64,000 nucleotides of DNA from an uncultured Sphingomonadaceae bacterium (GTDB lineage Bacteria > Pseudomonadota > Alphaproteobacteria > Sphingomonadales > Sphingomonadaceae), in the NCBI GenBank assembly GCA_947501695.1, contig CANMWO010000001.1:1302001-1366000 (forward strand), written 5' to 3'. The position numbers were made by a program, and so were the translations under genes. Below are positions 5,950 through 37,666 of the stretch, one piece after another. The notes under the pieces were generated by a model. That model saw only the letters and a program-made list of their open reading frames with translations. It made no database searches and was not told where the DNA came from. Within the stretch, counting starts at the first letter, position 1. Each line of letters opens with the position of its first letter.

Positions 5950-8900
5950 GTGTCCTATTTAGATAAATTATTTTCCTCCAACAGTGGATTGACTCTGGCT
6001 GGAGTGACAGCGGGCTATCGGCCATATTGTTTGGCGGATATAGCGGTTCAATCGGGGCAACGGACCGTGTTCATAGCAACCGACGACGCCGCGATGAGCG
6101 CAGTTGCTGAAGCAACGCGATATTTTCAGCCGGAATTGGAAATCATCGAGTTTCCCGCATGGGACTGCCTACCCTATGATCTTGCCTCACCAGCACTTCA
6201 TACAACATCAGAACGGTTGGCAGCTTTGTCACGTCTCGCACTGCCAGCCTCTGGCGGGCAATTGGTTGTTACGACTATAAATGCTGTGACGCAGCGCGTT
6301 CTGGAACCCGCCAGAGTGAAGGAGCTGGTTACGAGATTGGCTCCCGGCACCATAGTAGAGCAAGAAAAATTGATATCTTTTCTCTATGCCAACGGTTTCG
6401 TTCGTGTTGATACGGTAGCAGATAGCGGCGAATTTGCTGCACGTGGTGGACTGATCGATCTTTTTCCGCCAGGCGTTGATATGCCGCTTCGCATTGACCT
6501 ATTCGGTGATGAAATAGAGAGTTTGCGTCAGTTTGATCCCGCCGACCAAAGAACGATTGGGAAAGTAGAAGGATTCGATCTTTTACCGGTTTCAGAGGTT
6601 TTGCTGGACGAAATCAGCATCACCCGCTTTCGCACGCGCTATCGAGAACTATTCGGTGCGGTCTCGACCAGCGACCCCATCTATCAATCCATATCCGAAG
6701 GCCGCAGGCTCTCAGGAATGGAACATTGGTTGCCGCTCATCGAAGAGCGCTTGGTCAGCTTTTTCGATTATCTATCGGATGATACACTGGTTATCCGTGA
6801 CGCTGCCGTGACTCCCGCAGCAGATGCTCAATTTGCTTCTATTGCGGATTATTACAAGAACCGCCAAGAAGCAGACAAGGCCAACCTGTCGAGCTATCGA
6901 CCGTTAAACCCGGAGATGCTCTATCTGGATCCATCGGAATGGCGAATACAGCAGTCAGATAGTCCAATCCACATCATCAGTGAATTTGACGAACCAGAAT
7001 CGTCCACCGTACTCTCCTTGTCCGTATCGTCTCCGCGCGATTTTTCTCCTGAACGCGCACGGAACGAAAACATATACAAGGCCCTAGCAGCCCATCTTAA
7101 TACGTTAACAAAGACAGGCACTACCGCGGTATTGGCGAGCTATAGCAATGGCTCCCGCGCAAGACTGTTTGACTTGCTTCAGGATCACGGCGTCAACGCT
7201 GCAACAATTTGCGATGATTGGAAATCGAGCAGAACAGCCGGCGCATCAGTTGCTCTGACCGTTTTACCTTTAGCCTCCGGATTCCGTACCGACGATATCG
7301 CTCTACTCACTGAGCAGGATATTTTCGGTGACCGACTGGTACGCAAATCAAAAAGGCGCAAGAGCGGTGACGCCTTCATTGAGGAACTATCCGCACTTAG
7401 CCAGGGCGACCTAGTCGTGCATCTAGAACACGGCATCGGGCTATATGAAGGCATTGTTTCTATTCCGGTTGGTGAAAGCCCGCATGACTGTGTCGCCCTA
7501 AAATATGCTGGCGGAGACAAGCTGTTCGTTCCGGTTGAGAATATCGACGTGCTTAGTCGCTATGGCGAAGGCGGAGAGACGGTAGTTCTTGACCGATTGG
7601 GCGGTGAAGGCTGGCAAAGGCGCAAGTCGAAACTTAAAGAACGTATAAGAGCTATTGCGCATGAGTTGTTGAAAACTGCGGCCGCGCGGGCCTTGCAACC
7701 CGCCACTCCAGCGCGAATTGAAACCAATGAAATGGCAGGATTCGTCGATCGCTTTCCCTATCAGGAAACAGACGATCAGCAGCAAGCAATTGAAGAAGTA
7801 CTCGGTGATATGGCGTCTGGCAAAGCCATGGACCGACTTGTCTGCGGTGATGTTGGTTTCGGCAAAACGGAAGTTGCGATGCGCGCTGCCTTTGCCGCTG
7901 CCATGGCGGGCATGCAGGTCGCTATAATTGCGCCAACCACCCTACTCGCTCGCCAACATTTCACCAATTTTGAAGAACGTTTCCGACCTTTCCCAGTAAA
8001 CCTCGGCCGACTGTCGCGCCTCGTACCAGCTGCCGAAGCAAAGAAGACCAAAGAAGGTCTAACCAATGGCAAGATCGACATTGTTATCGGGACGCACGCG
8101 TTAATTGCCAAATCAATCGAATTTCAACGGCTTGGCTTAATCATTGTTGATGAAGAGCAAAAATTTGGTGTTACGCATAAAGAGCGGCTCAAAGCGATGA
8201 AGGCGGATGTTCATGTGCTGACGCTAACCGCGACGCCCATTCCGCGAACTTTGCAGATGGCAATGACGGGATTGCGTGAGTTATCCGTGATCCAAACACC
8301 GCCTGTCGATCGTCTAGCTGTCCGTACTTATGTGATGCCATGGGATCCAGTTCCCTTGCGTGAAGCGCTAATGCGGGAACATTATCGCGGCGGCCAGAGC
8401 TTTATCGTCGTTCCTCGCATCGCTGATCTGCCGGAAATTCAGGAATTTCTGAAAGAATATGCACCAGAGATTAGTTTCGTCGTCGCCCATGGACAAATGC
8501 CTCCAGCTCAAGTCGAAGAACGCATGTCGGCCTTTTACGACAAGAAATATGATGTGCTCCTGGCAACGACTATTGTTGAAAGCGGCCTTGACATTCCAAG
8601 CGCCAATACGTTGATCATTCATCGCGCTGATCGGTTTGGGCTCGCCCAACTCTATCAATTGCGCGGTCGGGTCGGACGTTCGAAAACCCGCGCTTATGCG
8701 TATATGGTGACGCCGAAAGATCGGATCATAACTGAAAAAGCTGAAAAACGGCTGAAAATCTTGGGTGATCTGGATAGTCTTGGGGCTGGCTTTGAGCTGG
8801 CAAGCCACGATCTAGACATTCGCGGTGCAGGAAATTTGCTCGGCGATGAACAATCGGGTCATATTCGCGAGGTTGGTTTTGAACTTTACCAGTCGATGTT

Positions 8901-31997: not shown

Positions 31998-32525
31998 ATG
32001 CCAATAGACGAAAGCCGGACGTTTAAACCGATTAACATCGCCCTTTTGACGGTGTCCGATACCCGTTCTCTAAAAGAAGACACATCCGGTGATATTCTGG
32101 CAGAGCGCATCGCTGACAAAGGCCACACTCTGATCTACCGCAGCTTGATCCGCGATGATAAATCCAAGATTATCGCGCAATTGCACCAGTGGATTGATGA
32201 GGAAACCGTCGATGTCATTATTACTACCGGCGGCACTGGCCTGACCGGGCGCGACATTACACCGGAAGCGCTTGATGCAGTGAAGGATAAGGATATCCCG
32301 GGCTTTGGCGAATTGTTCCGTTGGCTAAGCTACGACAAAATTGGGACGTCCACTGTCCAATCGCGAGCCTGCGCTGTAGTGTCGAGGGGTACATATATTT
32401 TCGCGCTACCGGGCTCCAACGGTGCGGTCAAAGATGGTTGGGATGGCATATTGGATACCCAACTCGATAGTCGCCATCGCCCCTGCAATTTTGTTGAGCT
32501 AATACCGAGGTTGCTCGAGAAATAG
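31998..32525 (+). CDS. moaB: Molybdenum cofactor biosynthesis protein MoaB
   Basis: A 175-residue MogA/MoaB-fold protein that adenylates molybdopterin before molybdenum insertion. The family motif TTGGTGLTGRDITPEA lies around residues 75-90, and SRGTYIFALPGSNGAV near the C-terminus. ATG 31998 is chosen over an earlier in-frame start because GGAG lies seven bases before it and the encoded protein then has the usual length. It is divergent from divL. The moaA gene is 20 kb away. Confidence 0.93.
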   Translation: MPIDESRTFKPINIALLTVSDTRSLKEDTSGDILAERIADKGHTLIYRSLIRDDKSKIIAQLHQWIDEETVDVIITTGGTGLTGRDITPEALDAVKDKDIPGFGELFRWLSYDKIGTSTVQSRACAVVSRGTYIFALPGSNGAVKDGWDGILDTQLDSRHRPCNFVELIPRLLEK

Positions 32526-32529
32526 AAGT

Positions 32530-32558
32530 TTGTTCTATTTTTGTTCTCATGCTATATT
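32530..32558 (+). promoter_or_regulatory. LexA (SOS) box overlapping a sigma-70-type promoter
   Basis: GTTC at 32532-32535 and GTTC at 32543-32546 are separated by exactly seven bases, which is the direct-repeat LexA operator of alphaproteobacteria. The same bases form a promoter: TTGTTC (32530-32535) as -35, a 17-base spacer and TATATT (32553-32558) as -10. The downstream ATG at 32565 is about where transcription should begin. LexA bound here would block RNA polymerase, so the following radical SAM gene is predicted to be induced by DNA damage. Confidence 0.75.
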
Positions 32559-32564
32559 GCATTT

Positions 32565-33662
32565 ATGGAACAGGATAAAAGGCCAGCCCTGCCCGCTCAA
32601 AAAGGGCGCGGCGCAGTTACCAACAATGAAAGCCACCGATTTAACTTGCCCAGCCGTGAAGCCGATGGCGATTGGCTAGATGACCGCGAGGCACTGGGGG
32701 ACGCGCCATCTAAGCTGCGCACCCAAGTTACGATCGAAGCACCAAAGTCTATATTAAGCTTCAACAAATCCCCGGATATCCCGTTTGACCGTTCGATAAA
32801 CGCTTATCGCGGATGTGAACATGGCTGCGTCTATTGTTATGCGCGCCCTACCCATGCCTATCACGACCTGTCGCCTGGCCTCGATTTTGAAACAAAACTA
32901 TTTGCTAAGCCCAATGCCGCGCAATTGCTCAGGGAGACGCTGGCTAAGCCGACATATCGACCCGCGCCGATTGCCATTGGGACAAATACCGATCCCTATC
33001 AACCGATTGAAAAACCTTATCGAATTACCCGCGCGATATTGGAAGTGATGCTGGAAACCAAACACCCTGTGGGGATCACCACCAAATCCGACAGAGTGAT
33101 TGATGATAGCGAGATTTTGGCCGCGCTGGCTGTGCTCGATCTGACCGCCGTTGCCATTTCAGTCACTACCCTCGACCCCCGCACCGCAAGACTGCTCGAG
33201 CCACGGGCACCGTCGCCGACCAAAAGACTATCGGCCATTAGCCATTTGCGCGCCCTCCATATTCCCGTGCACGTCAACATAGCACCTGTCATTCCAGCCA
33301 TTACCGATCACGAAATCGAAGCCATTGTCGCGGCCGCAGCAGACCAAGGTGCGCAAAGCGTTTCCGTCATTCCGGTGCGCCTGCCCCATGAGGTGGCGCC
33401 CTTGTTTGAACAATGGCTCGAAGCCCATTTCCCGGAGCGCAAACAAAAGGTCATGGGCATCATAGCCTCGCTGCGCGGCGGCAAGAAAAATGACCCGGAC
33501 TTCCATAGCCGGATGAAAGGGAAAGGCCCTTGGGCAGAGTTGCTCCACCATCGCGTCGCCATTGCAGCGCGCAAAAGCGGTCTGGGGAAAGCAAAATTCG
33601 CGCTGAGAACAGATTTGTTCCAGCGGCCGATAGTCAAAGGCAGTCAGATGGAGCTGTTTTAA
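32565..33662 (+). CDS. PA0069-family radical SAM protein, predicted SOS-regulated
   Basis: A 365-residue radical SAM protein of the PA0069 family, distantly related to spore photoproduct lyase. The 4Fe-4S motif is CEHGCVYC, inside YRGCEHGCVYCYARPTH near residues 85-101. The segments IAIGTNTDPYQPIEK and VSVTTLD-like strands match the family. The ATG at 32565 is the first after the -10 element, and no Shine-Dalgarno sequence precedes it, so the mRNA may be leaderless. A LexA box in the promoter points to a DNA-damage role. The substrate is unknown. Confidence 0.9.
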   Translation: MEQDKRPALPAQKGRGAVTNNESHRFNLPSREADGDWLDDREALGDAPSKLRTQVTIEAPKSILSFNKSPDIPFDRSINAYRGCEHGCVYCYARPTHAYHDLSPGLDFETKLFAKPNAAQLLRETLAKPTYRPAPIAIGTNTDPYQPIEKPYRITRAILEVMLETKHPVGITTKSDRVIDDSEILAALAVLDLTAVAISVTTLDPRTARLLEPRAPSPTKRLSAISHLRALHIPVHVNIAPVIPAITDHEIEAIVAAAADQGAQSVSVIPVRLPHEVAPLFEQWLEAHFPERKQKVMGIIASLRGGKKNDPDFHSRMKGKGPWAELLHHRVAIAARKSGLGKAKFALRTDLFQRPIVKGSQMELF

Positions 33663-37033: not shown

Positions 37034-37666
37034 ATGAAAAAATCGCTATTGGCATTGTCTGCCATCGCATTGAGCTTTGCGCCTGCAAATGCAGCGCTGG
37101 TAATTAGTCAGGGCGCCATTGGGGTTATCGATTCCAATGATACCGTCATCTGCGATGGCGTAACGGATTGCAACGGGGCTCTAACTGGGAATTTTATCAA
37201 CTTCTTCTCAAGTATTCCTGGCCAAGCTGCAGCACTGCCTGGAAACAACACGTCTCAGATAGCAGTACGCGGTAGTGATCTTTCTGCCATTCTCGCCGTC
37301 GACAGCTTGGTATCGAGCTTCTCTTTCGATTGGGGAAGTGTTGACACATATAATAGCATCAACATTTTCACGAGCACTGGAAATTTCACTGTCAATGGAA
37401 GCGACTTGCCGCCGGCAAACGGAAACCAGAACAGTTTCGGAACGAACTTCCGTTTCACAGCGCAATTTGATGCACCGACCTTCCTAGAGGACATTGAATT
37501 CGTGAGTACACGTAACTCGTTTGAGTTTGACAATGTCTCAATTGCAGCTGTTCCAGAGCCTGCCACATGGGCGTTCATGATCTTTGGCTTTGGTGCCATT
37601 GGTGGTGCCCTAAGATCAAATGGCCGCCGCCAGCGCAAAGCTAATCTGAAAGTCAGCTACGCTTAA
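37034..37666 (+). CDS. PEPxxWA-CTERM sorting domain protein
   Basis: A 210-residue exported protein. A signal peptide covers residues 1-20 (ending APANA). The middle is a Thr/Asn/Ser-rich beta-type region with no recognised domain. The C-terminus has the sorting signal VPEPATWA (173-180), then a hydrophobic helix FMIFGFGAIGGAL and an Arg/Lys cluster RSNGRRQRK. This is the PEP-CTERM signal cleaved by exosortase-type transpeptidases. A strong terminator follows, so it is probably monocistronic. No exosortase gene is in the window. Confidence 0.85.
   Translation: MKKSLLALSAIALSFAPANAALVISQGAIGVIDSNDTVICDGVTDCNGALTGNFINFFSSIPGQAAALPGNNTSQIAVRGSDLSAILAVDSLVSSFSFDWGSVDTYNSINIFTSTGNFTVNGSDLPPANGNQNSFGTNFRFTAQFDAPTFLEDIEFVSTRNSFEFDNVSIAAVPEPATWAFMIFGFGAIGGALRSNGRRQRKANLKVSYA

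Follow-up and report, generated by a model that had tools for sequence, protein, structure and literature searches.

A gene for a radical S-adenosylmethionine (SAM) protein of the PA0069 family in an uncultured Sphingomonadaceae bacterium is very likely under SOS (LexA) control: a LexA-type box, GTTC-N7-GTTC, lies across its predicted promoter and is conserved in place upstream of orthologues, and the promoter register points to a leaderless transcript. The gene lies in a stretch of 64,000 nucleotides (GenBank assembly GCA_947501695.1, contig CANMWO010000001.1, positions 1,302,001 to 1,366,000, forward strand), hereafter the window. Binding of LexA, induction, the true 5′ end of the transcript and action on DNA are inferred, as parts of a model in which the gene would belong to the LexA regulon and have a promoter of its own downstream of moaB. 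Without DNA damage, LexA bound to the box would cover the −35 hexamer and the spacer and block RNA polymerase; upon DNA damage, RecA-stimulated cleavage of LexA would free the promoter. Transcription would start at the A of the ATG, yielding a leaderless mRNA translated without a Shine–Dalgarno site. The product would be a radical SAM enzyme with the spore photoproduct lyase fold, with damaged DNA, or a nucleotide linked to damage, as its most likely substrate and a reaction route other than the lyase's cysteine/tyrosine hydrogen transfer. We put the probability of this model as a whole, a LexA-repressed leaderless gene for a damage-acting radical SAM enzyme without the lyase route, at roughly 80%.

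The box, the promoter register, their conservation, the protein family, and the fold were computed. At the locus the box reads GTTCTATTTTTGTTC and overlies the −35 hexamer and spacer of a TTGTTC-N17-TATATT promoter 5′ of the radical SAM gene (Table 1), at the coordinates given in a preliminary description made from the letters of the window. Because six bases separate the −10 hexamer from the ATG, the A of that ATG is the expected +1, and no Shine–Dalgarno word precedes it in the window sequence; the hexamer spacing and the missing word support the earlier claim that transcription should begin at this ATG with no ribosome-binding site. The mechanically first start of the frame is a TTG at 32541, inside the box.

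Within the genus, 29 of 32 genomes contain a match over the family cut-off. Two contig-end fragments were set aside; in each of the 28 loci whose 5′ end is complete, counting that of the window, a perfect box stands immediately upstream, with a variable N7. In the family, 133 of 149 genomes score over the cut-off; among 90 loci (30 from the search and 60 chosen from the rest, about one per genus), the box is perfect in 83 and has one mismatch in 5 more (within −250..+60), and two loci, L043 and L051, have none in that interval. The gene exceeds the cut-off in 90 of 153 alphaproteobacterial genomes searched. A set of 90 alphaproteobacterial loci from outside the family, five duplicates having been dropped, contains 69 perfect boxes, 9 with one mismatch, and 12 loci with none (within −200..+60). 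The check proposed in the preliminary description, a search for the box upstream of PA0069 orthologues in Sphingomonadales, is positive. Named GTDB loci, which overlap the other locus sets, give a similar picture (72/80 perfect, 4 with one mismatch, 4 with none); three of the eight imperfect loci are named Gammaproteobacteria, Chromatiales, and Muproteobacteria (L374, L377, L356), and these have no perfect CTGT box either. In other classes of Pseudomonadota, GTTC-N7-GTTC is found in 0/23 loci; a perfect CTGT-N8-ACAG occurs in 15/23, and neither motif in 8/23. LexA motif types by class are set out in a comparative study (PMC3323433). The operator at these loci matches the LexA type of each class, a correspondence otherwise hard to explain, and this argues for LexA control.

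The genome itself is consistent with this assignment. Its single PF01726 match is lexA (TIGR00498), whose box, GTTCTTTATTCGTTC, ends 18 nt before its ATG; GTTC-N7-GTTC as the LexA operator, as the preliminary description had it, is corroborated by the genome's own lexA. Besides the radical SAM site, 29 of the genome's 76 sites were inspected. Boxes precede recA, radA/sms, an MmcB-like gene, and an RmuC-like gene (120 bits, far under that model's cut-off), and in a PcrA/UvrD-like helicase gene the box falls at the 5′ end of the frame; several other inspected sites have no evident SOS gene, and some lie in or near genes with no SOS role, such as egtB and purE. In Sphingopyxis granuli, anaerobic growth is described as inducing lexA, recA, radA, and imuAB-dnaE2 (PMC6472365). 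By sequence, the radical SAM gene has the marks of a LexA-regulon member: a box on its promoter like the one that lexA has in this genome, and a conserved operator that tracks the LexA type of the class.

For the leaderless prediction, each start was picked as the nearest in-frame ATG downstream of the box, or failing that GTG or TTG (192 of 197 picks are ATG); the 90 nt before it were scored for two-hexamer promoters, and the best one was recorded by the position of the first base of its −10. Excluded from these sets are the two boxless family loci, three loci without a pickable start and any locus beyond the family that has no perfect box. The −10 begins at −13..−11 in 19/28 genus, 60/85 family, and 41/69 other alphaproteobacterial loci, and in 0/15 loci of other classes; recA under the identical start rule (29 family genomes, three without a box) falls in this register in 0/26. 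A stricter pair test retains 15/28, 41/85, and 41/69 loci, respectively, versus 0.5, 12.3, and 4.3 in box-keeping shuffles, and no other register exceeds 6 in any of the three sets. Shine–Dalgarno words of at least 4 bases precede 18% of genus, 8% of family, and 23% of other alphaproteobacterial starts, compared with 18% of random places and 22/26 recA starts. Together, the promoter register and the scarcity of Shine–Dalgarno words support a leaderless transcript as the predicted state.

A transcript arriving from upstream (e.g., from inside or before moaB), with the box as a downstream operator or roadblock, would preserve SOS control without a leaderless start. The adjacency of moaB on the same strand is compatible with this arrangement, as are the genome's own lexA, whose best promoter is followed by a normal leader carrying a Shine–Dalgarno word, and the 62 of 182 alphaproteobacterial loci where the best promoter falls elsewhere; however, the register peak at −12 stands well above the box-keeping shuffles, Shine–Dalgarno words are few, and the recA control behaves differently, making an upstream start unlikely. 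As a separate observation, the MmcB-like DNA repair gene (L147, G000:C3:465696-465710) carries a perfect box at a distance of 12 nt from its ATG, and there too the best promoter is at the leaderless register.

The distance between operator and start differs among lineages. From box end to start there are 18 or 19 nt in 27/28 genus loci and 23–25 nt in 44/69 other alphaproteobacterial loci; the family (n = 85) divides into 5–6 nt (28 loci), 9–12 nt (18), and 23–25 nt (27). In the 23–25 nt class the N7 begins with TTG, placed near −35, in 19/27 family and 39/44 other loci; in the 5–6 nt class TATGTT stands at the box end, placed at −10, in 24/29; and at 12 nt, as read row by row, the box fills the spacer. 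From these sequences, the promoter-to-start register is predicted to have been kept while the operator moved. It is possible, if doubtful, that this holds Alphaproteobacteria-wide: the gene would be leaderless, selection would fix the promoter-to-start register, and the LexA operator would be re-seated on the −35, around an N7 TTG serving as −35, in the spacer, or over the −10. In that reading the product, a widespread, damage-induced radical SAM enzyme without the catalytic cysteine of the lyase, would on that account carry out an undescribed repair or nucleotide reaction. If the leaderless register is fixed and the operator moves, the loci would provide a compact natural series on how a repressor site is fitted to a promoter.

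Assignment of the protein to the PA0069 family, also made in the preliminary description, holds: NF033668 (rSAM_PA0069) matches with 457.4 bits against a cut-off of 360, over positions 1–348 of the 348 in the profile. The second-best NCBIfam match, NF038135 (Rv2578c family radical SAM), reaches 204.6 bits, under its cut-off of 430. The nearest solved fold to the structure model (pLDDT 90.9) is spore photoproduct lyase, and a profile comparison with three lyase homologues gives E 8.4e−6. A phmmer search of the protein against PDB returned nothing at E up to 1; a profile search against PDB, at E up to 10, listed SkfB, NifB, and three weak others, and no lyase. Because no lyase appears in that profile listing, kinship with the lyase is drawn from the fold and the comparison with the three homologues.

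The earlier claim of a distant relationship to spore photoproduct lyase stands as regards the fold; the lyase's catalytic cysteine, however, has no conserved counterpart. C84, C88, and C91 are invariant in 230/230 orthologues, as is the CxYC tyrosine Y90, and there is no fourth invariant cysteine among the 230; lyase chemistry is therefore not to be assumed. Residue 140, which would correspond to the lyase donor cysteine (141 in B. subtilis) by a shared TDP motif and strand order, the hhalign comparison having left the catalytic-cysteine stretch unaligned, is cysteine in 0/230. The residue matched to B. subtilis Tyr99, after the third cysteine, is Phe in 149/230 and Tyr in 81/230, the window's protein being among the latter. 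A search of three family members for PF20903 listed no match at E up to 10, although its speed filters can lose weak ones.

If the protein were a true spore photoproduct lyase or a photolyase-like repair enzyme, the label that SplB homologues carry in papers, this would account for the best fold match, the profile comparison, and the invariant Y90. Such an enzyme would have to operate with only the three invariant cysteines, none at residue 140, and with Phe in most orthologues, though not in the window's protein, at the Tyr99 position; moreover, PF20903 goes unmatched, and PA0069 is also present in the three genomes whose PF20903 matches are strongest. We regard a true lyase as very improbable. 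In three alphaproteobacterial genomes of one genus (L378–L380; G434, G349, G428), a PF20903 lyase homologue with the donor cysteine is found besides the PA0069 gene.

The bare motif, counted alone, proves nothing, because its counts in window and genome are no better than chance: GTTC-N7-GTTC occurs 3 times in the window versus 1.64 expected (at least 3 in 25 of 100 shuffles), and 76 times in the genome versus 112 for a reversed control pattern. Motif enrichment was accordingly dropped as evidence. The two further window matches, at 7051-7065 and 37429-37443, both on the minus strand, are likely chance; the second falls within the frame 37034-37666. Downstream of the loci, background GTTC-N7-GTTC amounts to 5 in 405,061 nt, about 0.003 per 260 nt, and the rate is about that or less for either strand-oriented pattern. 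The signal beyond chance is the conservation of the box in place, not motif count. The lack of enrichment and the several of 29 inspected sites in or near unrelated genes (e.g., egtB, purE) speak for a coincidental box, or a site for another regulator; with the box kept in place near-universally across orthologues and its place taken outside Alphaproteobacteria by the other LexA motif, this reading is scarcely credible.

Returning to the model of a LexA-repressed leaderless gene for a damage-acting enzyme, three points weigh against it: 21 of the 90 alphaproteobacterial loci outside the family have no perfect box (L192, one of the 12 boxless loci, has only 9 nt of upstream sequence); the best promoter is off the leaderless register in the 62 of 182 loci given above; and the case for action on DNA draws on regulation and fold only. 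Because of SOS control and the fold, damaged DNA or nucleotides are the suggested target, and a DNA lesion is, by a modest preference, the substrate we favour. In the literature such genes go by the name of SplB photolyases of the SOS response; as the catalytic cysteine has no conserved counterpart, that name may point to the wrong chemistry. The conserved damage switch offers a defined condition in which to look for the enzyme's function.

Gene neighbours within three open reading frames (ORFs), scanned in one representative piece per cluster, revealed no clear partner. In the named loci outside Sphingomonadales (L340–L377), 13/37 have an RNase HII-like gene no more than three ORFs away, and in 11/37 it is the adjoining gene, on the same strand; a DNA methylase is within three ORFs in 6/37, two genes on in 5. 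A UDG-superfamily gene is nearby in 12/43 sphingomonad loci. A MoaB match is present in 28/28 genus and 46/90 family loci.

Table 1. Predicted and annotated features at the radical SAM locus, in window positions.
Feature	Position	Strand	Basis or remark
LexA (SOS) box GTTC-N7-GTTC, predicted	32532..32546	+	perfect copy also in 28/28 genus, 83/90 family loci
−35 hexamer TTGTTC, overlapping first box half	32530..32535	+	top-scoring promoter of preceding 90 nt
−10 hexamer TATATT	32553..32558	+	first base at −12 from ATG; 17-nt spacer to −35
Predicted transcription start, A of ATG (leaderless)	32565	+	inferred from promoter register
PA0069-family radical SAM protein, 365 aa	32565..33662, including stop codon	+	NF033668, 457.4 bits; model pLDDT 90.9
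CxxxCxxC [4Fe-4S] motif codons (C84, C88, C91)	32814..32837	+	cysteines invariant in 230/230 orthologues
moaB, upstream neighbour	31998..32525	+	TIGR02667

Broken copies of the gene occur in several relatives. A truncated 5′ copy stands just upstream of an intact copy at L116, L129, L128, and L082 (G124, G117, G129, and G093) and at L387/L388 (G398), and in every case the break comes immediately behind the codons for GCE in the CxxxC motif (after the E85 codon). Each of the four alphaproteobacterial truncated copies has its own perfect GTTC box. In G398 a 3′ remainder lies about 18 kb away, and no integrase was found among the 9 ORFs scanned of 23 listed in that stretch; no 3′ remainder was found beyond the intact gene at E up to 1e−4 in about 40 kb for G117, G124, G149, and G093 or about 8 kb for G129. 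The pairs look like recurrent site-specific insertion bringing a replacement copy; compare phage Samy, whose attB is reported to be a Streptomyces Rv2578c-family gene (PMC12924846). At L397 (G091) the gene is broken differently: an N-terminal piece (residues 14–88) is followed directly by a C-terminal piece (164–356), with the middle absent.

PA0069 itself reportedly appeared in the P. aeruginosa LexA regulon in the 2006 work of Cirz. Several accounts place related genes under SOS control: splB is predicted to be under LexA control in alpha- and betaproteobacteria (Sanchez-Alberola 2012; PMC3323433); SplB (COG1533) is called SOS-regulated in several species in a Bacteroidetes paper that cites Cirz 2006 for splB (PMC8565304); and the core regulon given for Gram-positive bacteria includes a radical SAM protein (PMC7739468). 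Operons that combine SplB-like genes with ImuB-C are also on record (PMC3765255). In Streptomyces venezuelae, the radical SAM gene vnz_31145 appears, with its SOS box, in a table of the LexA regulon and is described as resembling enzymes that repair UV thymine cross-links (PMC9380542). A 2026 paper calls the link of the Rv2578c family to DNA repair speculative (PMC12924846). In the open-licence literature, “PA0069 family radical SAM” had no match, and the accessible passages on SOS splB genes were not found to state a leaderless register, a moving operator, or a missing cysteine; no title among the matches listed for leaderless genes and LexA concerned this gene, and a 2026 Caulobacter SOS paper (PMC13384398) contained none of the terms tried.

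Spore photoproduct lyase (PDB 4FHC and relatives) is 14% identical to the PA0069 protein and has the CxxxCxxC motif and a lyase-like fold in common with it, but its donor cysteine is not conserved in PA0069 orthologues, and PF20903 is unmatched. The Rv2578c family provides the second-best match, but with a score under the family cut-off. The gene vnz_31145 belongs to another phylum, has another box, and is likened to the present gene by its published description only. SOS-regulated splB (COG1533) genes are likewise SplB-like radical SAM genes with a LexA box, GTTC-N7-GTTC in alphaproteobacteria; unlike the present locus, the alphaproteobacteria in the figure legend of the splB study include no sphingomonad (PMC3323433). 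SOS control of such genes is already known and is here extended to sphingomonads; what still merits attention is the conserved layout, predicted to be leaderless, and the chemistry of the enzyme.
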